NCBI RefSeq assembly: GCF_028993575.1
Contig: NZ_CP118615.1
Location: 3,720,001 to 3,784,000, forward strand
Source of the DNA: Micromonospora cathayae
GTDB taxonomy: Bacteria; Actinomycetota; Actinomycetes; Mycobacteriales; Micromonosporaceae
Direction of reading: 5' to 3'
Length of the DNA: 64,000 nt
The position numbers were made by a program, and so were the translations under genes. Below the pieces are notes generated by a model. The model saw nothing but the letters and a program-made list of their open reading frames with translations, was not told the origin of the DNA and did no database searches. Positions 44,741-57,754 of the stretch are shown here, in pieces; within the stretch, counting starts at the first letter, position 1; the number at the start of each line of letters is the position of its first letter.

Positions 44741-47700
44741 GTGCGAAATTCCGATGGGACGCGGCGCGCCCGATGGCGGGCGTCGACCCCTGTCCCTCTG
44801 CTCGCGGCGCTGCTCGCGACGAATCTGGTGGTGCCTGTCCCGGCGACGGCTGCCTGGGCGGCAGGGGTGCCGGAAGGGGGAACCGGCGTGTCGGCCGAGG
44901 AGACGGCGCTGACCGCTGCGAAACGGTCCGGCCGGGTGGTGGAGGTCGCGGGCTCGACCTCGGAGGCGGCTCGCGTCGTCGCCACCCCGGAAGGCTCCCT
45001 CGTCCTGGAGACCTACGCCGCGCCGAGATGGGCCTCCCGACGTGACGGCACGGGCTGGCAGCAGATCGACACCGCGCTGCGTCTCGACGTCGACGGCGTC
45101 GTGCCGAACGCGACGCTGGCCGACGTCAGGTTCTCCGGCGGGGGCACTGCGCCGATGGTGTCGGTCGGGGTGGGCGGTGGCCAGGTGGCCCTGTCCTGGC
45201 CGGAGGCGTTGCCAGATCCCCGGCTGGAAGGGGACACCGCGATCTACGAGTCGGTGCGTCCGCAGGTGGACCTCCGTGTGCGGGCACTCTCCGACGGCTT
45301 CACCTGGTCGCTGGTGGTGCACTCGGCGCAGGCCGCGATGGACCCGACGCTGGAGACGTTGCGGTTCCGGCTCGACACGGTCGGCCTGACCAAGCGGGAA
45401 CGGTCCGACGGCGGATTCGAGATTCTGAACGCAGCTGGTGAGCAGGTTCTGGGCGCGGGAAACGCCCTGATGTGGGATGCCTCCGGGGTAACCGCAAGAC
45501 CGGGCGCGCGTGCCGCCGCACCCGAGCTACGGGAGGCGCTGGAGACCGCGCCTGAGCAGTCCCAACAGGCGGAACTGCCGGTGAACCTGGACGGTGACGA
45601 CCTCGTCATCCAACCTGACCTCGACCTACTGCGCGGGGCCGGGACGGCCTACCCCGTGGTGATCGACCCTTGGACGACCATCGGCAAGACCTACTGGGGG
45701 TACGCCGGGTCGACCGGCGCCACCCGGGACGACGGGGTGGCCAGGGTGGGCCTGGACCCGGCCGGCTCCGGCACCTACCGGTCGTTCTTCCGGTTCAACC
45801 TCTCCGCCCTGTCCGGCAAGTCGATCCGCTCGGTGAAGTTCCTGACCGAGCTCACCCACTCCTTCTCCTGCAGCGCGACGCCGGTCAACCTCTGGCGCAG
45901 TGGCGACCTGCCCGGTGCCGGCAAGCGGGCCTGGCCCGGTCCCGGCCTTGCGCTCTGGCTCGAGCAACGCTCGGGCAACGCGCACAAGCCGTCCGGCAGC
46001 CTGGAGTGTGCCAACGACCCCCAGCCGGACCTGCCGATGGAGTTCTCCAGCGCGAACCTGAAGAACGACGTGACCGACCACCGGGGGGACGGCAACTACA
46101 CCCTCGCCCTGTCGACCCGGCAGTCCGACGGCTCGTCGGAGACGACGAGCACCTGGTGGAAGAAGTTCGACCCGGCCCAGACCAAGCTCTCGGTCGAGTA
46201 CAACACCAACCCGAACACCCCCACCGCCGCGCAGTTGGCAACCCACGCCGACTACGCGACGGCGGCCCTCGCCTGCGTCACGGGCACCGCGCGGCCGGCG
46301 GTCCGGTCCCGGTTCCCGTGGTTGAAGGCCACGGTCACCGACCCGGACGGCGGAAACGGCGGCACCCTCTCCGGGGTGTTCAGCCTGCAGAAGTGGAACG
46401 GCAGTGCCTGGGCGGCGGTGTCGGGGTGGCCGCGGACGGACGCGGGCGTGGCCCCGGGAGCGCGGGCCGAGGTGCAGTTCACCACTGAGACCGTGAACGG
46501 CGAGCAGTACCGGTGGCAGGCGCAGACCAAGGACACCCTTGGCGGTTCGTCGGGGTTGTCGCCCTGGTGTGAATTCACCGTGGACTACGCCCCGCCGTCG
46601 AACGGACCGTCGGTCACGCCCGCCGACGGCCTCTACCTGGAGTCGCCGCCGTACGGCACCAACCAGGACAAGCGTGGTGCCAAGGGCTTCTCGGGCCGCT
46701 TCACGTTCTCGGCCAACGGGGTTGCCGACGTGTACGACTACGTCTACCAGGTGTCGGGTGGTCCGCAACAGACCGTGTTGGCAGCCAGCCCTGGCGGGGC
46801 GGCGACCGTGTGGGTGACGCCCTACCGGGAGGGCGAGAACATCCTGACCGTCTGGAGTCGGGACCAGGTCGGCAACACGTCCGACCCGTACAGCTACGTC
46901 TTTCTCGTCGACGGCCCGACCGCCGAGAAGGCTGCCTGGGCGATGAACGAGGGCACCGGGACCAGCCTGGGTAATCGTATCGACGGCGCCCCTGCCGCGA
47001 CGCTGCAGAACGGCCCCGCCTGGACGGACACCCGGCTGATCGGCACGCACGAGACCCGGGGCCGGGACCGGGCCGTCGACTTTGACGGCGTCGATGACCT
47101 CGCCACGACGACCGGCGCGGTGATCGACACCACACGCAGCTTCTCCGTCGCCGCCTGGGTACGCCCCGACGCGATCGTCGGATCCCACGTCGTGCTGTCC
47201 CAACCGGCCACCAACCGGAGCCCCTTCGAGCTGCAGTACTACCCGACGACCCAGAAGTGGTGTTTCGTCACGTACTCGGCCGACGCGGTGAACAGCACAT
47301 CCAACACCACTCCGGCCTGTGCCAGTGCTGCGGTCCGGGTGGGCGTCTGGACCCACCTGACCGCCGTCTACGACGTGGCTGCTCCCCAGCAGTTGGCGCT
47401 CTACGTCAACGGCGTGCGGGACGGCACCGGCTCGACGGCACCGATGTGGGCCTCGACCGGCACGTTCACGATCGGCGCAGCCCGCAACGGGTCGACGACC
47501 GCCCGGTTCAACGGAGCGATCGACGACGTCCGGGTCTGGGACCGAGTCCTCGACCCGACGGTCGACATCGAACCGATCACCAGTCCGGTCCTGACCGGGC
47601 AGTGGGAGATGGAGGACTACGACGAGGAGGACCCCCGTCAGGAGGGTGATGGCTCCGGCTACCAGCGACCGGTGACCCTGACCTCCGCGCCGTCAGCTCA

Positions 47701-48229
47701 GTGGTCGAGCAACGGATACCAGTTCTCGTACGGTCTTGCTCTCGATGGCGTGGGCGGATCGGCGGACAGCCCGGTGCCGGTGGTCCGCAGTGACCAGTCG
47801 TTCACCGTCGCCGCGTGGGTCAAGCCGAACAGCAACGGCCATCAGGCGATCCTGGTGCAGGACGGAAGCATCCGGTCCGCCTTCTTCCTCATGCTCGACG
47901 GTCCGACCGGCAAGTGGGTGGTCACCATGCCGACTGCCGACGCGAACACGGTGACCTGGCAGGCGGCCCACTCGACGTCGCTGGCGTCGTTGCACGTGTG
48001 GACCCACCTGGCTGCCGTCTACGACGCCCAGACCCGGGAGCTGAAGCTCTACGTCAACGGGGTGCTGCACGCCACCCGTACCAACGTGACCGCCTGGCAC
48101 GGCGGCTCAGCCTTCCATATCGGACGTAGCAGCGGCAGCTACTTCCTCGGTGCCACCGTCGACCGGGTCCGTACCTGGGCCGGAACGATGTCGGACAACG
48201 ACATCGCCGGCCTCCACGGGGAGGTCTGA
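44741..48229 (+). CDS. Secreted LamG/DNRLRE-type surface protein
   Basis: A 1,162-residue exported protein. A long signal peptide (LLAALLATNLVVPVPATAA) is followed by a beta-rich region, then a DNRLRE-type module at about 313-490 (YWGYAGSTGATRDDGVARVG; SYRSFFRFNLSAL-like), further beta domains, and two LamG/concanavalin-like jelly rolls at about 780-945 (SFSVAAWVRPD) and 1010-1160 (SFTVAAWVKPN). No catalytic residues are recognised. It probably binds surface glycans or partners. In actinomycetes such proteins are commonly encoded directly before RHS toxins, as here. The start GTG at 44741 follows GAGGAGATT. Confidence 0.87.
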   Translation: MRNSDGTRRARWRASTPVPLLAALLATNLVVPVPATAAWAAGVPEGGTGVSAEETALTAAKRSGRVVEVAGSTSEAARVVATPEGSLVLETYAAPRWASRRDGTGWQQIDTALRLDVDGVVPNATLADVRFSGGGTAPMVSVGVGGGQVALSWPEALPDPRLEGDTAIYESVRPQVDLRVRALSDGFTWSLVVHSAQAAMDPTLETLRFRLDTVGLTKRERSDGGFEILNAAGEQVLGAGNALMWDASGVTARPGARAAAPELREALETAPEQSQQAELPVNLDGDDLVIQPDLDLLRGAGTAYPVVIDPWTTIGKTYWGYAGSTGATRDDGVARVGLDPAGSGTYRSFFRFNLSALSGKSIRSVKFLTELTHSFSCSATPVNLWRSGDLPGAGKRAWPGPGLALWLEQRSGNAHKPSGSLECANDPQPDLPMEFSSANLKNDVTDHRGDGNYTLALSTRQSDGSSETTSTWWKKFDPAQTKLSVEYNTNPNTPTAAQLATHADYATAALACVTGTARPAVRSRFPWLKATVTDPDGGNGGTLSGVFSLQKWNGSAWAAVSGWPRTDAGVAPGARAEVQFTTETVNGEQYRWQAQTKDTLGGSSGLSPWCEFTVDYAPPSNGPSVTPADGLYLESPPYGTNQDKRGAKGFSGRFTFSANGVADVYDYVYQVSGGPQQTVLAASPGGAATVWVTPYREGENILTVWSRDQVGNTSDPYSYVFLVDGPTAEKAAWAMNEGTGTSLGNRIDGAPAATLQNGPAWTDTRLIGTHETRGRDRAVDFDGVDDLATTTGAVIDTTRSFSVAAWVRPDAIVGSHVVLSQPATNRSPFELQYYPTTQKWCFVTYSADAVNSTSNTTPACASAAVRVGVWTHLTAVYDVAAPQQLALYVNGVRDGTGSTAPMWASTGTFTIGAARNGSTTARFNGAIDDVRVWDRVLDPTVDIEPITSPVLTGQWEMEDYDEEDPRQEGDGSGYQRPVTLTSAPSAQWSSNGYQFSYGLALDGVGGSADSPVPVVRSDQSFTVAAWVKPNSNGHQAILVQDGSIRSAFFLMLDGPTGKWVVTMPTADANTVTWQAAHSTSLASLHVWTHLAAVYDAQTRELKLYVNGVLHATRTNVTAWHGGSAFHIGRSSGSYFLGATVDRVRTWAGTMSDNDIAGLHGEV

Positions 48230-48347: not shown

Positions 48348-51300
48348 ATGAGGATCCACAGATCCGGAAGACGGCTCCGGCGCCCCGGGCCGATGCGCGG
48401 CGGCCCTCGAGGGCTCGTCGCCGCCGGCCTGGTGGCGGTGCTCGCCGGCACCCTCGCCGGCCAGGTGCCGGTAGACGCGCAGGCGGCCCCCTCTGCGGAG
48501 CGGCTGACCGCACAGCGGCACGACTCCGTGGACGGTCGTGAGGTGCAGGCCACCCGGCCCGGACCGAGCCGTACCGAGGCCGCCGCGAAGATCCGGAAAC
48601 CCTCGCCCGCCTGGCCCGCGGCACACCTCACGAAGGTGACCCTGCCGGCGCAGACCCGGGCAGACGAGGGCAGCCGCGCGGCGGAACCGTTCCTCACCCG
48701 GGCGACCGGAACGCCCGTCTCGGTAGGACCGGCCCCGACCACCGGCCGGCGTGGCGGCGCGGCTACCACCGCCGCCACCGTCGCCGTCGAGGTGCTGCCC
48801 CGCTCCACCGCCGAGGCCGCCGGAGTGTCCGGACTGCTGCTGCGGCTCGCACGGGCGGACCGGGCTGCGACCGCCGCCGGCTTCCGGGTCCGCGTCGACT
48901 ACGCCGCCTTCCGCACCGCGTACGGCGCGGACTGGTCCTCGCGGCTCCGGCTGGTCGCCCTGACCGACTGTGCCGTGGTCACGCCGGCCCCGCGCCGCTG
49001 CACGGTGACCGAGCTGCCGACCGACAACGACGTCCGCAGGTCGACGGTGACCGCGAACGCCCGCATCGGGACGGTCGGCACGTATGTCGCCGTGCTAGCC
49101 GGCACCTCTGGTGGGTCCGGGACGTTCGCCGAGAGCGGGCTGGCCTCCTCCTCCACCTGGAGCCACGGGGGTGCCACCGGCGGCTTCAACTGGTCGTACC
49201 CGATGCGTACGCCACCTGCGGTCGGCGGTCCGGCCCCGTCAGTCTCCCTCGGCTACTCCTCGCAGTCGGTGGACGGGCGCAACGCGGCCAGCAACAACCA
49301 GCCGTCCTGGATCGGTGAGGGATTCGACTTCTCGCCTGGCTTCGTCGAGCGCCGCTACACCCCGTGCGCCGACGACATGACCGGTGGCAGCAACAGCACC
49401 GAGACCGGTGACCTGTGCTGGGACGGCTACAACGCGGTGCTCTCGCTCGGCGGCACCTCCGTCGAGCTACTCCGGGACGCCAACGGTAAATGGCATCCGC
49501 GCCGGGAGGACGCCTCCCGGATCGAACTGCTGACCGACAGTTCCTTTGCCAACGGGGACGACAACAACGAGTACTGGAAGGTCACCACCGCCGACGGGAC
49601 CCAGTACTTCTTCGGGCGGAACCGGCTGCCCGGCTGGGCCACCGGTCGCCCGACCACCAACTCGGTGCTCACCGTGCCAGTCGCCGGAAACCATGCGGAC
49701 GAACCGTGTGAGAACGGCAGTTTCGCCAACTCGTTCTGCGCCCAGGCGTGGCGGTGGAACCTGGACTACGTCGTGGACGTCCACGGCAACACCATGTCGC
49801 TGTGGTGGGCCAAGGAGACCAACCGCTACGCCCGCAACCGGGCCCTGACCAGCCCGGTGCAGTACGACCGGGGCGGTCACCTGCTGCGGATCGACTACGG
49901 AAGCGACAACCGTGGCGGCTCCGAGTACGCCGCGACCGCCCCGTACGTGAAGAACACCCCCGGCCGGGTGGAGTTCGGCGTCTCCGACCGGTGCCTGAGC
50001 AACTGCGCCACGAAGAACGAGACGACCTGGCCGGACACCCCGTGGGAGCAGGAGTGCACCGCCAGCACCGCCCAGTGCTTCACCGGGTCACCGACCTTCT
50101 GGACGTCCAAGCGCCTCACCACCGTCACCACGAAGGTGTTCAAGGCGGCCACCTCCTCGTACCAGAACGTCGACTCGTGGACCCTGCGGCACACGTTCCC
50201 CGACCCCGGCGACGGCACCCGGGCGGGACTCTGGCTCGCCGGCATTACCCAGCGTGGTCTGAACGGCAGCACGATCACGCTGCCCGAGGTCACCCTCGAC
50301 GGCATCCAGATGAACAACCGGGTGGACGCCACCGGCTCGGACCACTCGAAGGCGATGAACTGGTGGCGGCTCAACAAGATCGTCAACGAGACCGGTGGCG
50401 AGACGTTCGTGACCTACTCCCCCCGGGAGTGCGTCCGTGACCAGACGATGCCGGCGGACGTCGATCACAACCGGATGCGCTGCTTCCCGGTGTACTGGAC
50501 ACCGCAGGGCATGGAGGACCCGGTCCAGGACTGGTTCCACAAGTACGTCGTGAACGAGGTCAAGCAGTACGACCACCAGGGCGGCGGCGAACCGGTGGTC
50601 ACCACGTACGAGTACCGGAACCCGTCGAACCTGGCGCTCTGGCGCTACGACGACGACGCGATCGTGCCGGCGAAGCGCAAGAGCTGGTCCCAGTGGCGCG
50701 GCTATCCCACCGTGGTCACCCGGGTCGGCGAAGGCGCCGCGCAGACCAAGACCGAGACGCTCTACTTCCGGGGCATGCACGGCGACCGGCTCAGCGGCGG
50801 GGGCACCCGTACCGTCACGGTCACCGGCCTGGAGGGTGGCGCGGTCACCGACCACGACCACTACGCGGGCATGCCGCGCGAGCAGATCACCTGGCTCGGC
50901 AGCACCGTCCTCGCAGCCACCGTCACCGACCCCTGGCGGTCGTCGGCGACCGCCAGCCGCAGTGGCGTCCCGGTGGTCGAGTCCCGGTACGTCCGACCGG
51001 CCACCGTCCGGACCCGGGTCGCCCTCGACGGTGGCGGGTGGCGGCGAACGACCTCGACGACCACCTTCGACAGCTACGGCATGCCGACGACGGTGGACGA
51101 CCGCGGTGACGACGACCCGGCCGTCGCCGACGATCTCTGTACCGTTACCGAGTACGCGCGGAACACCAGCGAAGAGAACTGGCTGCTGACGCCGGTGCGG
51201 CGGACCCACGGCTGGACCGGCCAGTGTGCGACCGCCCCCACCTCCGCCGCGCAGGTCACCGCCGACACCCGGTTCCGCTTCGACAACGCCGCCTACGGCG

Positions 51301-54300
51301 CCGCCCCGACGAAGGGGCAGGTGACCGCCGTCGAGGAGATCAGCGACTACAACGGCGGCAGCCGGCTCTACCAGACCATGAGCACCGCCACCTACGACGT
51401 CTACGGCCGGACCCACGAGGTCACCGACGTGGCGGGGAAGAAGACCACCACCACGTACGCCCCGGCCACCGGAGGGGCGATCACCCAGGTCACCACCACC
51501 AACCCGCTCGGCTGGACCGAGGTGGTCGACATCGACCCGGCCTGGGGTGAACCGGTCAAGCGGACCGACACCAACCTCCGGGTCACCGAGACCGGGTACG
51601 ACGCGCTGGGCCGGACCATCGGCGTGTGGCAGCCGAACCGCCCCCGGACCAGCTACCCCAACGATCCCTCGACCGGTGTCACCTACACCGTGTCGAAGAC
51701 CGGGCCGTCGTCGATCACCACGCGGAGCCTCAACCCCCGGGCGACGTACGACACGTCGTACCAGATCGTCGACTCGCTGGGGCGGGCCCGGCAGACGCAG
51801 ACCCCCGCCTACGGCGGCGGGAGGGTGCTCACCGAGACGCACTACGACTCGGCGGGCCGGGTCTGGAAGACCAACGGGCCCTACTTCCACAACGGCACGG
51901 CCGGCACCACGCCGTACTTCGGCCTGGACCTGGACGTACCCCGGCAGGTCCGGACCGTCTTCGACGCCGCCGGACGACCGACGAACGAGATCCTGCTCGG
52001 CAAGGCCGTGGAGAAGTGGCGCAGTGTCACCTCCTACCACGGCGACCACAACAAGCTGACCCCGCCAGACGGCGCGGCGGCCAGCACAGTCTGGACCGAC
52101 GCGCGGGGCAACACCAGCAAGCTGTGGCAGCACCACGGCAACACGCCGACCGGCGGGTACGACGAGACGAAGTACACCTACCACCCGACCGGGCGACTGG
52201 CCGGCGTGTCCGATGCCAGCGGGAACACCTGGAGCTACGAGTACGACATCCGGGGCCGACAGATCCGGGTCGACGACCCGGACAAGGGCGAGACCGTCTT
52301 CACCTACAACACCCTCGGTGACCTGGAGACGGCCACCGACTCGCGCGGCATCACCCGGGCGTTCACCTACGACGACCTCGGCCGCCCGACCAGCGTGCGC
52401 GACGGCAGCGTCACCGGGAACCTCCGTACCTCCTGGACGTACGACTCCCCGGTGAAGGGGATCACCACGTCGGCCTCCCGCTGGGTGGGGACCAACGAGT
52501 ACCGCACGGAGACCGTGACGGTCGACGCGTTGTACCAACCCACACAGAGCCGGGTCGTCATCCCGTCGGCGGAGGGTGCCCTCGCCGGCACCTACACCTT
52601 CCGAGCCGCCTACAACGTCGACGGTTCGGTGCGGACCCAGACCCTGCCGGCGGCCGGCGGCCTGGCGACCGAGACCCTGACCACCACGTACGACGCGACG
52701 TACGCGTTGCCGCAACTGCTGAGCACCAACGCGGGCGACGTCACCCACTACGTCGTGGACGCCGGCTACAGCCAGCTCTACGAGCCGAACGTCGTCACCC
52801 GGGCCACCGCCCTGACCGGGGCCAAGTCGCTGCAGACCGCGCAGTACCACGACGAGACGACCGGCCGGGTGGCCCGACGTGCCGTGATCCGCTCGGTGGC
52901 TCCGTCGTACCTCGCCAACACGGAGTTCTTCTACGACAAGGCCGGCAACGTCACGGAGATCGACGACAACCCGTTGGTCGACGGGTCGAAGCGGGACACC
53001 CAGTGTTTCACCTACGACCACCAGCGCCGGCTGACCGAGGCGTGGACCCCGGCCTCCGCCGACTGCGCCCAGGCTCCCACCGCCGCCGGGCTCGGCGGGC
53101 AGGCACCGTACTGGCAGAGCTGGGACTTCGGCACCGCGACCGACCCGAAGGGACGGGTCGGCAACCGGCTGGGCCAGACCGACCACGCCACCCCGACCGG
53201 GGACGTCACCACCACCTACACCTACCCGGCGGCCGGCGCGGACCAGCCGCACAGCCTGCTCGGGTACAGCCGGACCAGCAGCACCGGCACCACGACCGGC
53301 AGCTACGCGTACGACAGCGCGGGTAACACCACCAGCCGCCCCGGACCCCAGGGGCAGCAGACGCTCACCTGGGACCCCGAGGGGCACCTGGCCACGCTGA
53401 CGGACACGGCCGGTACGAACTCGTACGTCTACGACGCGGGCGGCAACCGGCTGATCTCCCGTGACCCCACCGGCGCCACCCTGTACCTGGGGGACATGGA
53501 ACTCCGGTTGCCGAACGGGAGCACCCAGGCCAACGGAACCCGCTACTACCGGTTCAACGGGGAGGTCGTCGCCCAGCGCACCATCACGGGACTGACCTGG
53601 CTGGCTGGTGACCACCACGGCACCGGCGAGATCACGGTCAGTGCGGACGCCAACCAGACGGTCACCCAGCGGCGGCACACGCCGTACGGCAGTCCCCGTG
53701 GCAGCCAGCCCACCTGGCCCAACCAGCGTGGGTTCGTCGGCGGCTACCAGGATCCGACCGGGCTGACCCACCTCGGAGCCCGCGAGTACGACCCGACGAC
53801 CGGTCGGTTCGTCTCGGTGGACCCGCTGATCGACGTCGGCGACCCTCAGCAGATCCACGGGTACAGCTACGCCGGGAACAACCCGGTGACCTACAGCGAC
53901 CCGGACGGGCTGATCTACACCGACTTCCTCAACCAGCCCGACCCGCACTTCGGCGGCAACGACGCGGGCAACTGCCGGGGCGGGTACCACTGCCAGGCGG
54001 TGCACGACAGCGGCGGCTACCGGGCTCCGAGGTGGAAGCCGGGTCAAGGAGCCAGCCCGGTCGAGCAGATCGTCCACGAGTCGCTCTGCACCCTGATGAT
54101 CGTCTGCCGGCCGGCCCTGTTCATCTCCGACACGGCCGACCTGTACCGCGCCGCCGAGAGCGGTGACCCGGCGGCGATCGCCGGGGCACTCGCCGCCTAC
54201 ATACCGGTCTGTGTCGGTCCGGTGTGCAAGAAGGCCGCCGACTACATCGCTGAGCGGGTCCAGTCGATGCTGGGCAGGAGCGCCAAGGGGGCTGCCGACT

Positions 54301-55265
54301 CCGCGCTGAACTCGGCGTCGAGGCGGGCCGCGGACGATTCTGCCGAGCGGGCGGCGCAGCGGGCCGGTGGCCAGTACGTCGCGCCGACCAGTCCGAAGCC
54401 GCCCGCGCCGCCGCGCAAACCGGCGGGTGGGTCCGGGCCGACCACCACGAAGGCCAAGTCGAGTGGTCCGTCGTGCCGGCACAGCTTCTCACCCGACACG
54501 CGGGTGCTGCTGGCCGACGGGGGCACCAGACGGATCGACGAGGTGGACGAGGGCGACCGGGTCCTGGCGCACGATCCGGAGACCGGCCGGACCAGCGCCG
54601 AGGTCGTCACCGAGCTGCACATCAACCAGGACCGGGAACTGACCGACCTGGTGGTGCGGAACGGCGACGGCGAGTTCGTCACGTTGGAGACGACGCAGCA
54701 CCACCCCTTCTGGAGCGAGAGCCGCGAGAAGTGGGTCGACGCTGGTGAGCTACGTGCGTCGGAGTGGCTGAAGACCACGACGGGAGAGCTGGTCACGGTC
54801 GCCAAGGTGCGCAACTTCCCCGGCGCCGAGACCATGCGCGACCTCACCGTCGCCAACATCCACACGTACTATGTGGTAGGCGGCAACACCCCGCTGCTCG
54901 TCCATAACTGTAACCTTGCAAACTACGCCGACAGCGTGCGCAATAAACCCGGAGTTAAATTCGCCTCGGAGTACACGTCACCTTCAGGTGCTAAGTATTA
55001 CGGCCATAATAGGCATGGGCAGCAGGCGGGCGGGCCGCTAGCGGACGCGCTTGAGCGGGCGGGTCACCATGGTGGGTGCGCAGAGGTGCATTGTCTGATC
55101 CAAGCTCAGGCGGCGGAAGGCCCCGAGGCTATCAGGGGTGGAACCATGCGTACGTTGCAGACAAGGAACAATTCTATGCCGACGTCAAATACGACTGGTC
55201 ATGGCGAACCAGGTCGCGCTTGCGGTCGTTGTAGTCGACTACTTGAAGATCTCGGAATCGGGTGA
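48348..55265 (+). CDS. RHS-repeat polymorphic toxin with HINT domain and deaminase-like tip
   Basis: A 2,305-residue exported toxin. A signal peptide (to about 47) leads into a SpvB-like N-terminal part and a long stretch of YD/RHS repeats (for example YDSAGRVWKT, FTYDDLGRPTSVRDG). The RHS core is at 1795-1855 (DPTGLTHLGAREYDPTTGRF ... DPDGL). Then come a short linker and a HINT domain at 2043-2187 (CRHSFSPDTRVLLADG to NTPLLVHN). HINT domains cleave after the final Asn, freeing the 118-residue tip from Cys2188. The tip has the zinc-deaminase pattern GGCAEVHCL (Cys2244, Glu2246) and ACGRC (Cys2292, Cys2295), closest to YwqJ-like deaminases. The target base is unknown. The ATG has GGAAGG upstream. 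Confidence 0.9.
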   Translation: MRIHRSGRRLRRPGPMRGGPRGLVAAGLVAVLAGTLAGQVPVDAQAAPSAERLTAQRHDSVDGREVQATRPGPSRTEAAAKIRKPSPAWPAAHLTKVTLPAQTRADEGSRAAEPFLTRATGTPVSVGPAPTTGRRGGAATTAATVAVEVLPRSTAEAAGVSGLLLRLARADRAATAAGFRVRVDYAAFRTAYGADWSSRLRLVALTDCAVVTPAPRRCTVTELPTDNDVRRSTVTANARIGTVGTYVAVLAGTSGGSGTFAESGLASSSTWSHGGATGGFNWSYPMRTPPAVGGPAPSVSLGYSSQSVDGRNAASNNQPSWIGEGFDFSPGFVERRYTPCADDMTGGSNSTETGDLCWDGYNAVLSLGGTSVELLRDANGKWHPRREDASRIELLTDSSFANGDDNNEYWKVTTADGTQYFFGRNRLPGWATGRPTTNSVLTVPVAGNHADEPCENGSFANSFCAQAWRWNLDYVVDVHGNTMSLWWAKETNRYARNRALTSPVQYDRGGHLLRIDYGSDNRGGSEYAATAPYVKNTPGRVEFGVSDRCLSNCATKNETTWPDTPWEQECTASTAQCFTGSPTFWTSKRLTTVTTKVFKAATSSYQNVDSWTLRHTFPDPGDGTRAGLWLAGITQRGLNGSTITLPEVTLDGIQMNNRVDATGSDHSKAMNWWRLNKIVNETGGETFVTYSPRECVRDQTMPADVDHNRMRCFPVYWTPQGMEDPVQDWFHKYVVNEVKQYDHQGGGEPVVTTYEYRNPSNLALWRYDDDAIVPAKRKSWSQWRGYPTVVTRVGEGAAQTKTETLYFRGMHGDRLSGGGTRTVTVTGLEGGAVTDHDHYAGMPREQITWLGSTVLAATVTDPWRSSATASRSGVPVVESRYVRPATVRTRVALDGGGWRRTTSTTTFDSYGMPTTVDDRGDDDPAVADDLCTVTEYARNTSEENWLLTPVRRTHGWTGQCATAPTSAAQVTADTRFRFDNAAYGAAPTKGQVTAVEEISDYNGGSRLYQTMSTATYDVYGRTHEVTDVAGKKTTTTYAPATGGAITQVTTTNPLGWTEVVDIDPAWGEPVKRTDTNLRVTETGYDALGRTIGVWQPNRPRTSYPNDPSTGVTYTVSKTGPSSITTRSLNPRATYDTSYQIVDSLGRARQTQTPAYGGGRVLTETHYDSAGRVWKTNGPYFHNGTAGTTPYFGLDLDVPRQVRTVFDAAGRPTNEILLGKAVEKWRSVTSYHGDHNKLTPPDGAAASTVWTDARGNTSKLWQHHGNTPTGGYDETKYTYHPTGRLAGVSDASGNTWSYEYDIRGRQIRVDDPDKGETVFTYNTLGDLETATDSRGITRAFTYDDLGRPTSVRDGSVTGNLRTSWTYDSPVKGITTSASRWVGTNEYRTETVTVDALYQPTQSRVVIPSAEGALAGTYTFRAAYNVDGSVRTQTLPAAGGLATETLTTTYDATYALPQLLSTNAGDVTHYVVDAGYSQLYEPNVVTRATALTGAKSLQTAQYHDETTGRVARRAVIRSVAPSYLANTEFFYDKAGNVTEIDDNPLVDGSKRDTQCFTYDHQRRLTEAWTPASADCAQAPTAAGLGGQAPYWQSWDFGTATDPKGRVGNRLGQTDHATPTGDVTTTYTYPAAGADQPHSLLGYSRTSSTGTTTGSYAYDSAGNTTSRPGPQGQQTLTWDPEGHLATLTDTAGTNSYVYDAGGNRLISRDPTGATLYLGDMELRLPNGSTQANGTRYYRFNGEVVAQRTITGLTWLAGDHHGTGEITVSADANQTVTQRRHTPYGSPRGSQPTWPNQRGFVGGYQDPTGLTHLGAREYDPTTGRFVSVDPLIDVGDPQQIHGYSYAGNNPVTYSDPDGLIYTDFLNQPDPHFGGNDAGNCRGGYHCQAVHDSGGYRAPRWKPGQGASPVEQIVHESLCTLMIVCRPALFISDTADLYRAAESGDPAAIAGALAAYIPVCVGPVCKKAADYIAERVQSMLGRSAKGAADSALNSASRRAADDSAERAAQRAGGQYVAPTSPKPPAPPRKPAGGSGPTTTKAKSSGPSCRHSFSPDTRVLLADGGTRRIDEVDEGDRVLAHDPETGRTSAEVVTELHINQDRELTDLVVRNGDGEFVTLETTQHHPFWSESREKWVDAGELRASEWLKTTTGELVTVAKVRNFPGAETMRDLTVANIHTYYVVGGNTPLLVHNCNLANYADSVRNKPGVKFASEYTSPSGAKYYGHNRHGQQAGGPLADALERAGHHGGCAEVHCLIQAQAAEGPEAIRGGTMRTLQTRNNSMPTSNTTGHGEPGRACGRCSRLLEDLGIG

Positions 55266-55269
55266 CTTG

Positions 55270-55764
55270 ATGATCCGCTTTGACTCACTTAGTCAGGACA
55301 CGCTTAGGGCCCTTGACGCTGCTGGGTGGGGAGTGAACCGCGCCGTTGACCCAAAACAATGGGTAGAGCCTCTGGAGAGCGAAGGCTACCGGGTCCATCC
55401 ATTGGCTACAGCTGTCCTGTCGGCGCTGGGGGGGCTTTCGGTTGAGCCGATCAACAGGGTGGGACCGAATTTTGCTAATGATGAGCCTTACAATTTCGAT
55501 CCGCTCGCGGGCGGGTCGGGGCAGCGCGCCTTAGCTTTGGAGGTGGAGACAGTTCTCGGCGGGCAGTATTTCCCTATCGGTGAATGGCTCAGCTACTCAA
55601 GCGTATTTCTGGAAGCTAGAGGGAGAGTGGTTGCTGCTGGCATGGGATGGTTCTGGGAGGTGGGGCCAAGCTTTGAAGAGTCTTTAGAGCTAGCAGTTTG
55701 CGCGAACCGCCCGCTGCTCTGTCTATACTCTGATCCGGGCGTGGCCCCTTGGCCGCCCGCGTGA
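55270..55764 (+). CDS. SUKH-3 family immunity protein
   Basis: A 164-residue protein starting 4 bp after the toxin stop. It shows the SUKH-3 pattern: TLRALDAAGWGVNRAVDPK, EGYRVHPLATAVLSALGGL, and the conserved IGEWLSYSSVFLEARGRVV followed by MGWFWEVG. SUKH-3 proteins neutralise polymorphic toxins, often deaminases or nucleases, by direct binding. The gene is clearly AT-richer than the surrounding genome, like the toxin tip, so the pair was probably acquired together. Confidence 0.9.
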   Translation: MIRFDSLSQDTLRALDAAGWGVNRAVDPKQWVEPLESEGYRVHPLATAVLSALGGLSVEPINRVGPNFANDEPYNFDPLAGGSGQRALALEVETVLGGQYFPIGEWLSYSSVFLEARGRVVAAGMGWFWEVGPSFEESLELAVCANRPLLCLYSDPGVAPWPPA

Positions 55765-55990: not shown

Positions 55991-56037
55991 GAGGTCTGTA
56001 CCCATACACAACGCCGATGTGGGTGGGTACAGACCTC
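55991..56037. terminator. 14-bp hairpin closing the toxin/immunity region
   Basis: A perfect inverted repeat (GAGGTCTGTACCCA / TGGGTACAGACCTC) with a 19-nt loop is found where the AT-richer cassette ends. It could be a terminator or the edge of an exchanged segment. The rest of the 498-bp gap (55765-56262) returns to high GC, and I see no other feature except the -10 near its end. Confidence 0.6.
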
Positions 56038-56887: not shown

Positions 56888-57754
56888 TCAGGGCTGCGGC
56901 ATGCCGTCGAGGATCGGGATGAGCTGCTCCTCCTCGTACGTCAGGTGGTTTTCCAGCTCCGCGATCAGCCGGTCCACCTCGGGGAGCAGCACCGTGGGGT
57001 CGGGGTCCGGTCGGGTGAGCGCCGCCTGTAGCTCGGCCAGGACGGCGGCGATCCGCTCGTGCTCGGCCCGCAGCCGCTCCAGGGTCGGGGCGAGTTCCGG
57101 GTGGTCGTCCATGGCCCGGAACAGGCCGGTGTCTTCCAAGGTGTGGTGGTGGTGCAGGCCCTGGCAGACGGTCAGGCAGTTGATCCGCAACTGGGCGCCC
57201 AGGCCAGGGCCGGAGCCGGCGACCTCCCGCCGGACGATGGCGAGTTCCCGGCGGAACGCGTCGTGGATCAGGCGGAGCGCCGCCCCGAGCGAGCTGGCGG
57301 GCGGCGGGCCAACGGCGACCTGCCGGAGCGCGACGACCGGGATGACCCGGCTGGTTTTCGCCTGGTAGCCGGCGTACCCGGGTTGGGCCTCGGCGATCCG
57401 GGGGAAGACCCGGTCCCGTTCGTCGCCGGGGAGGACGGTGGCCTCGGCCTGGTACGTGAAGGTGCCGTCCTCGACGGTGACCTGCGGGTCGGCCACCAGG
57501 TTGTGGTACCAGTGCGGGTGCCGGTCCGCCCCGGCGGCCGACGCGACGACCAGCAGCCGGCCGCCCTCGTCGGGCAGGTAGGCCAGTGGGGTGGTGTGTG
57601 GGCGTCCGCTGTGGACGCCGGTGGTGGTGAGCAGCAGCAGCCGGCCGCCCTCGAACGGACCTCCGACCCGCCCGTGGTTGGCCCGGAACTCCTCGATGAT
57701 GGCGTCATTGAAACTGTTCGGCAATTCCCCGTGTCCTTCGTCCGTGGGGGGCAC
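56888..57754 (-). CDS. F420-dependent nitroreductase-like / hemerythrin fusion
   Basis: A 288-residue two-domain protein. The N-terminal part (1-145) is a DDN-like deazaflavin (F420)-dependent nitroreductase-family beta barrel (LLLLTTTGVHSGRPHTTPL; HPHWYHNLVADPQVTVE). The C-terminal part (150-288) is a four-helix hemerythrin-like domain with His/Glu metal ligands (GLHHHHTLEDTGLF; LRAEHERIAAVL; HLTYEEEQLIP). The combination suggests O2/NO sensing or detoxification coupled to F420 redox chemistry, which is inference. The predicted GTG at 57754 sits inside a 12-bp palindrome; a TTG at 57724 is an alternative start. Confidence 0.85.
   Translation of the reverse strand: MPPTDEGHGELPNSFNDAIIEEFRANHGRVGGPFEGGRLLLLTTTGVHSGRPHTTPLAYLPDEGGRLLVVASAAGADRHPHWYHNLVADPQVTVEDGTFTYQAEATVLPGDERDRVFPRIAEAQPGYAGYQAKTSRVIPVVALRQVAVGPPPASSLGAALRLIHDAFRRELAIVRREVAGSGPGLGAQLRINCLTVCQGLHHHHTLEDTGLFRAMDDHPELAPTLERLRAEHERIAAVLAELQAALTRPDPDPTVLLPEVDRLIAELENHLTYEEEQLIPILDGMPQP

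Follow-up and report, generated by a model that had tools for sequence, protein, structure and literature searches.

According to passages of the survey by Zhang et al. 2012 (PMC3482391), HINT peptidases and RHS repeats are components of classical polymorphic toxins, a HINT domain adjoining the C-terminal tip is thought to free this tip, SUKH proteins act as immunity proteins, and SUKH is named as a partner of YwqJ deaminases. The prototype of the YwqJ-like family (PF14431) is Bacillus subtilis YwqJ, an LXG toxin. Here, a locus of Micromonospora cathayae was analyzed within a window of 64,000 nucleotides (contig NZ_CP118615.1, positions 3,720,001 to 3,784,000 of the forward strand), in which a gene for a predicted exported RHS protein with a HINT domain and a deaminase-like tip is followed by a SUKH-3 gene. 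We consider it highly probable that the two genes form a polymorphic toxin-immunity pair, with a divergent deaminase tip freed by HINT, YwqJ-like proteins as its nearest family, and the SUKH-3 protein as antidote.

Domain order, tip motifs, and the linked SUKH-3 gene

The open reading frame of the toxin gene contains no internal stop codon in translation. Close to its N terminus, a hydrophobic 14-mer, LVAAGLVAVLAGTL, forms the hydropathy peak (residues 23 to 36) and is followed by an A-x-A motif (AQAAPS at residue 44), suggesting a signal peptide. RHS repeats (PF05593, 44.7 bits versus a Pfam cut-off of 22) and the RHS-associated core both lie N-terminal to the tip, and the PT-HINT domain PF07591 scored 70 bits (cut-off 27.7). 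The HINT domain, whose first residue we take, by eye and from family knowledge, to be Cys2043, ends with V-H-N at residue 2187, directly followed by Cys2188 as the first residue of the 118-residue tip. The stop codon of the toxin gene (TGA, 55263 to 55265) is separated by 4 bases from the start codon of the SUKH-3 gene (ATG, 55270). The preliminary description had proposed this order, from signal peptide through RHS repeats, RHS core, HINT, and deaminase to a SUKH-3 gene 4 bp downstream, and had predicted a HINT end at VHN with a tip starting at Cys2188; both proposals agree with our results, the RHS, HINT, and SUKH-3 domains being above their cut-offs and the signal peptide being judged from hydropathy.

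The tip contains the motif C-A-E at residues 2244 to 2246 (nucleotides 55077 to 55085) and C-G-R-C at residues 2292 to 2295 (nucleotides 55221 to 55232). In the alignment of the family (A1), the Cys and Glu of the first motif and both later Cys residues are invariant in all 29 sequences. A scan of the genome collection, in which 65 stretches matched a pattern, provided 27 loci encoding tip relatives, and every one of them shows C-[AS]-E followed by C-x2-3-C, with C-x3-C replacing C-x2-C as the second zinc motif in six (L021, L022, L023, L028, L030, and L031). Because of this invariance in A1 and the recurrence in all 27 loci, the motif pair is not attributable to chance.

Linkage was assessed from the open reading frame following the tip in each of the 27 loci, plus one further frame in three of them. 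SUKH-3 is encoded within about 1 kb downstream in 20, as the next gene in 19 and as a later gene in L029; none was found in L015, L021, L022, L027, L031, L032, and L033. Since a profile scan of the M. cathayae genome revealed just three SUKH-3 places in 7.2 Mb, the association is not a chance one. In L021, L022, L027, and L031, the tip relative is followed by another small protein with common W-L-P-D-W and R-L-V-R-R stretches, which had no Pfam match at an E value of ≤0.1 and is a candidate for a second immunity family; L021 additionally carries a SUKH-1-like gene further downstream (25.3 bits, cut-off 25.4). A rule tying the C-x3-C variant to an immunity gene other than SUKH-3 was considered and rejected: L021, L022, and L031 possess C-x3-C and had no SUKH-3 found, but L023, L028, and L030 combine C-x3-C with SUKH-3, and L027, with C-x2-C, had no SUKH-3 found. 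The structure model of the SUKH-3 protein reached a predicted local distance difference test (pLDDT) value of 95.9, its best structure match in the PDB having an E value of 0.64; the sequence gave weak hits among solved structures, the best being an alpha-1,3-glucanase (E value 0.0054).

In the proposed mechanism, the RHS protein would be exported, with its RHS part bearing the C-terminal region, and HINT would cut after Asn2187 to free the tip. The tip would act as a zinc-dependent deaminase, with Cys2244, Cys2292, and Cys2295 as expected ligands and Glu2246 as the putative proton shuttle. Once it had entered a competitor cell, it would deaminate a base-containing substrate, and the SUKH-3 product would shield the producer and its kin.

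Relatedness, predicted fold, and possible substrates of the tip

The preliminary description had called the motifs a YwqJ-type pair, and this assignment would hold only as a remote relationship. At an E value of ≤1, PF14431 was the sole Pfam family matched by the tip of the window, and it was matched by 24 of the 29 family members (best E value 1.1e-4). Comparison of the A1 profile with 16 canonical PF14431 members yielded a probability of 69% and an E value of 4.4e-5 with both motifs aligned, while an unrelated control gave 0.7% and 0.082. Two results weigh against the YwqJ label. The tip scored 12.9 bits with PF14431, i.e., below the gathering cut-off of 25.9, and the A1 profile matched that of cytidine deaminase more strongly (probability 86.8%, E value 4.2e-6), although over just 23 C-terminal columns comprising the PCGRC helix; the latter result slightly lowered our confidence in the whole reading. 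A genome-wide scan with PF14431 (E value of ≤0.001) detected two other places in the M. cathayae genome and did not recover the tip. Of the other deaminase families, PF00383 weakly matched 18 of the 29 members (best E value 0.0018) and PF14421 matched three (best 0.01). Compared with solved structures, the tip sequence had no match at an E value of ≤1, the A1 profile produced four chance-like hits with repeats of beta-lactamase inhibitory protein on top, and a search of plasmid records returned one match with 29% identity. The undescribed deaminase subgroup also considered previously is a fair suggestion in the form of a divergent subfamily.

The structure model of the tip (pLDDT 92.9) predicts a deaminase-like fold. 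Specifically, its deaminase core has helices spanning residues 59 to 71 and 107 to 116 that start at the zinc-site motifs C58/E60 and C106/C109 (model numbering), and deaminases top both lists of structural matches, with blasticidin S deaminase and cytidine deaminase as the closest folds; the deaminase fold proposed beforehand from the CxE and CxxC motifs is therefore borne out by prediction. The model stops after helix 107-116, lacking strands 4 and 5 of the canonical deaminase fold, and the chains of the relatives in the 27 loci end 6 to 15 residues past the last Cys.

With regard to the substrate, it is a nearly even call whether the tip is a DNA or RNA deaminase that kills by mutation or nucleic-acid damage, a reading favored by its predicted fold and by the toxin deaminases DddA and SsdA (passages of PMC7901873) and UmbC1 of Streptomyces coelicolor (passages of PMC11062931), which are described to mutate DNA. 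DddA, SsdA, and UmbC1 were not named among the 50 matches listed in each structure comparison, an absence that excludes nothing. What speaks against a nucleic-acid substrate is that the enzymes at the top of the structure lists have free nucleosides or a nucleoside antibiotic as substrates, that the tip model ends after helix 3 without the strands 4 and 5 described for SsdA in PMC7901873, and that induction of B. subtilis YwqJ, according to passages of PMC8321402, left the chromosome and rRNA unaffected despite a marked growth effect. Deamination of a free nucleotide, nucleoside, or other small molecule, draining a metabolite pool, is a serious possibility that we would still place short of even; it is favored by the two closest folds and by the cytidine deaminase profile, which aligns with the C-terminal PCGRC helix, and small molecules were also proposed by the YwqJ authors in the same passages. 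On the substrate pocket itself, the 23 aligned C-terminal columns are uninformative. The narrower idea of a separate minimal toxin-deaminase subfamily of about 118 residues without strands 4 and 5, killing via free nucleotides, nucleosides, or small molecules and not via DNA or RNA, appears unlikely. An inactive or non-enzymatic domain with a structural or binding role, which the minimal fold lacking strands 4 and 5 might suggest, is very improbable, given that the catalytic residues are kept in all aligned sequences and loci and that an immunity-type partner is usually retained beside the gene.

Table. Coordinates of predicted features (in the window unless a locus is named)
Feature	Position	Strand	Basis or description
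Exported RHS-HINT-deaminase toxin gene (predicted)	48348..55265	+	2305 residues; ATG start; GGAAGG upstream
Hydrophobic N-terminal segment plus A-x-A, probable signal peptide	48414..48485 (approximate)	+	Hydropathy alone
RHS repeat-associated core, residues 1778-1855	53679..53912	+	TIGR03696, 67.9 bits, cut-off 32.5 (NCBIfam)
PT-HINT autoprotease-like domain, Cys2043 to V-H-N2187	54474..54908	+	PF07591 match, residues 2058-2187
Deaminase-like tip, residues 2188-2305	54909..55262	+	Motifs, alignment, profile, fold model
SUKH-3 immunity protein (putative), 164 residues	55270..55764	+	PF14433, 49.9 bits, cut-off 23
Inverted repeat, possible terminator	55991..56037	.	23-nt arms, 87% complementary, 1-nt gap; begins 226 bp after the immunity gene
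Small W-L-P-D-W protein, about 110-122 residues	L021:3466-3834; L022:3465-3833; L027:3360-3692; L031:3325-3678		

Probable cassette exchange and genomic surroundings

At third codon positions, the guanine-plus-cytosine content drops from 92.7% in the carrier to 54.2% in the tip and 60.6% in the gene for SUKH-3, and it stands at 96.3% in the gene that comes after. Sequence similar to the C-terminal part of the carrier is encoded in 60 of 61 sampled genomes of the genus; among 151 genomes of this genus, 7 carry the tip, its own included, and in the first sample of relatives the tip was confined to its own genome (1 of 41). Nine HINT-bearing places, eight in other genomes and one elsewhere in the M. 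cathayae genome, were read from the many listed. Among the resulting ten tips, including that of the window, no blastp pair was obtained at an E value of ≤0.01, and the A1 profile matched the window tip only. Both the composition break and the diversity of tips are located at the V-H-N border, the best explanation being that tip and immunity gene were acquired together as a cassette.

Several further loci were noted. One of the nine other tips, that after the last V-H-N of L076, shows, by eye, H-x-E and C-G-S-C and is possibly a further deaminase; it matched neither the window tip nor the A1 profile. In the M. cathayae genome, a second HINT domain (L002, G000:C1:6151784-6152236), 68% identical to that of the window, occupies a short frame of 288 codons together with a different tip; a small gene lies downstream, and the arrangement looks like a displaced toxin cassette. 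A single 412-codon frame of the same genome (L003 and L036, G000:C1:2492678-2493586) contains a YwqJ domain (103.6 bits) and SUKH-3 (132.3 bits), i.e., a canonical YwqJ toxin-like domain fused with an immunity-like domain; two further genomes of the genus contain YwqJ-matching frames, with lengths of 410 and 413 codons. At L004 (G000:C1:3322682-3323365), a 253-codon frame holds a partial YwqJ match (positions 79 to 137, 30 bits) directly before SUKH-3 (124.3 bits), which may be a truncated version of the fusion.

The gene upstream of the toxin gene (window positions 44741 to 48229, ending 118 bp before it) encodes a secreted-looking protein of 1162 residues with two LamG stretches (PF13385), which resembles LamG-RHS fusion proteins essentially in the LamG stretches only. 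That it represents a detached half of the toxin is unsupported, as P0003 and P0030 are the only long relatives that it matches at an E value of ≤1e-10, again essentially over LamG. At window positions 56888 to 57754, on the reverse strand, an F420H2-dependent quinone reductase domain (PF04075) is fused to a hemerythrin domain (PF01814).

Comparison with described systems

The locus offers a compact, well-conserved deaminase-like tip together with its putative antidote, and about 50 relatives are found in databases. Should the tip prove to edit DNA or RNA, a small editing enzyme would be gained; action on small molecules would agree with the reported sparing of chromosome and rRNA by YwqJ. A search of the open-licence literature found neither the tip subfamily by name nor any match for SUKH-3 together with a deaminase.

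Blasticidin S and cytidine deaminases are not toxins, unlike the predicted role of the tip; the aligned stretch of blasticidin S deaminase ends at residue 103 of this enzyme, and the tip has nothing past it. DddA, SsdA, and UmbC1 are interbacterial deaminase toxins like the predicted tip (passages of PMC7901873 and PMC11062931), but they mutate DNA, whereas the deaminase activity of the tip is putative, and SsdA has five strands, the last two of which are missing from the tip model. With YwqJ-like proteins, the tip shares C-x-E and, near the C terminus, HG...PC-x2-C-x2-LL...G. It differs by its score under the Pfam cut-off, by a shorter stretch separating the two motifs, by its own signatures Y-T-S-P-S-G and HHGGCAEV, by an RHS-HINT instead of an LXG carrier, and by ending 10 residues past the last Cys, compared with 17 to 20 in the ten canonical YwqJ frames read. 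The design of the system is already described: like the classical RHS-HINT toxins in passages of Zhang et al., it combines an RHS stalk, HINT before the tip, a swappable tip, and a downstream immunity gene, and it differs from them solely in the tip subfamily, which scores below the Pfam cut-off and is its distinctive part.
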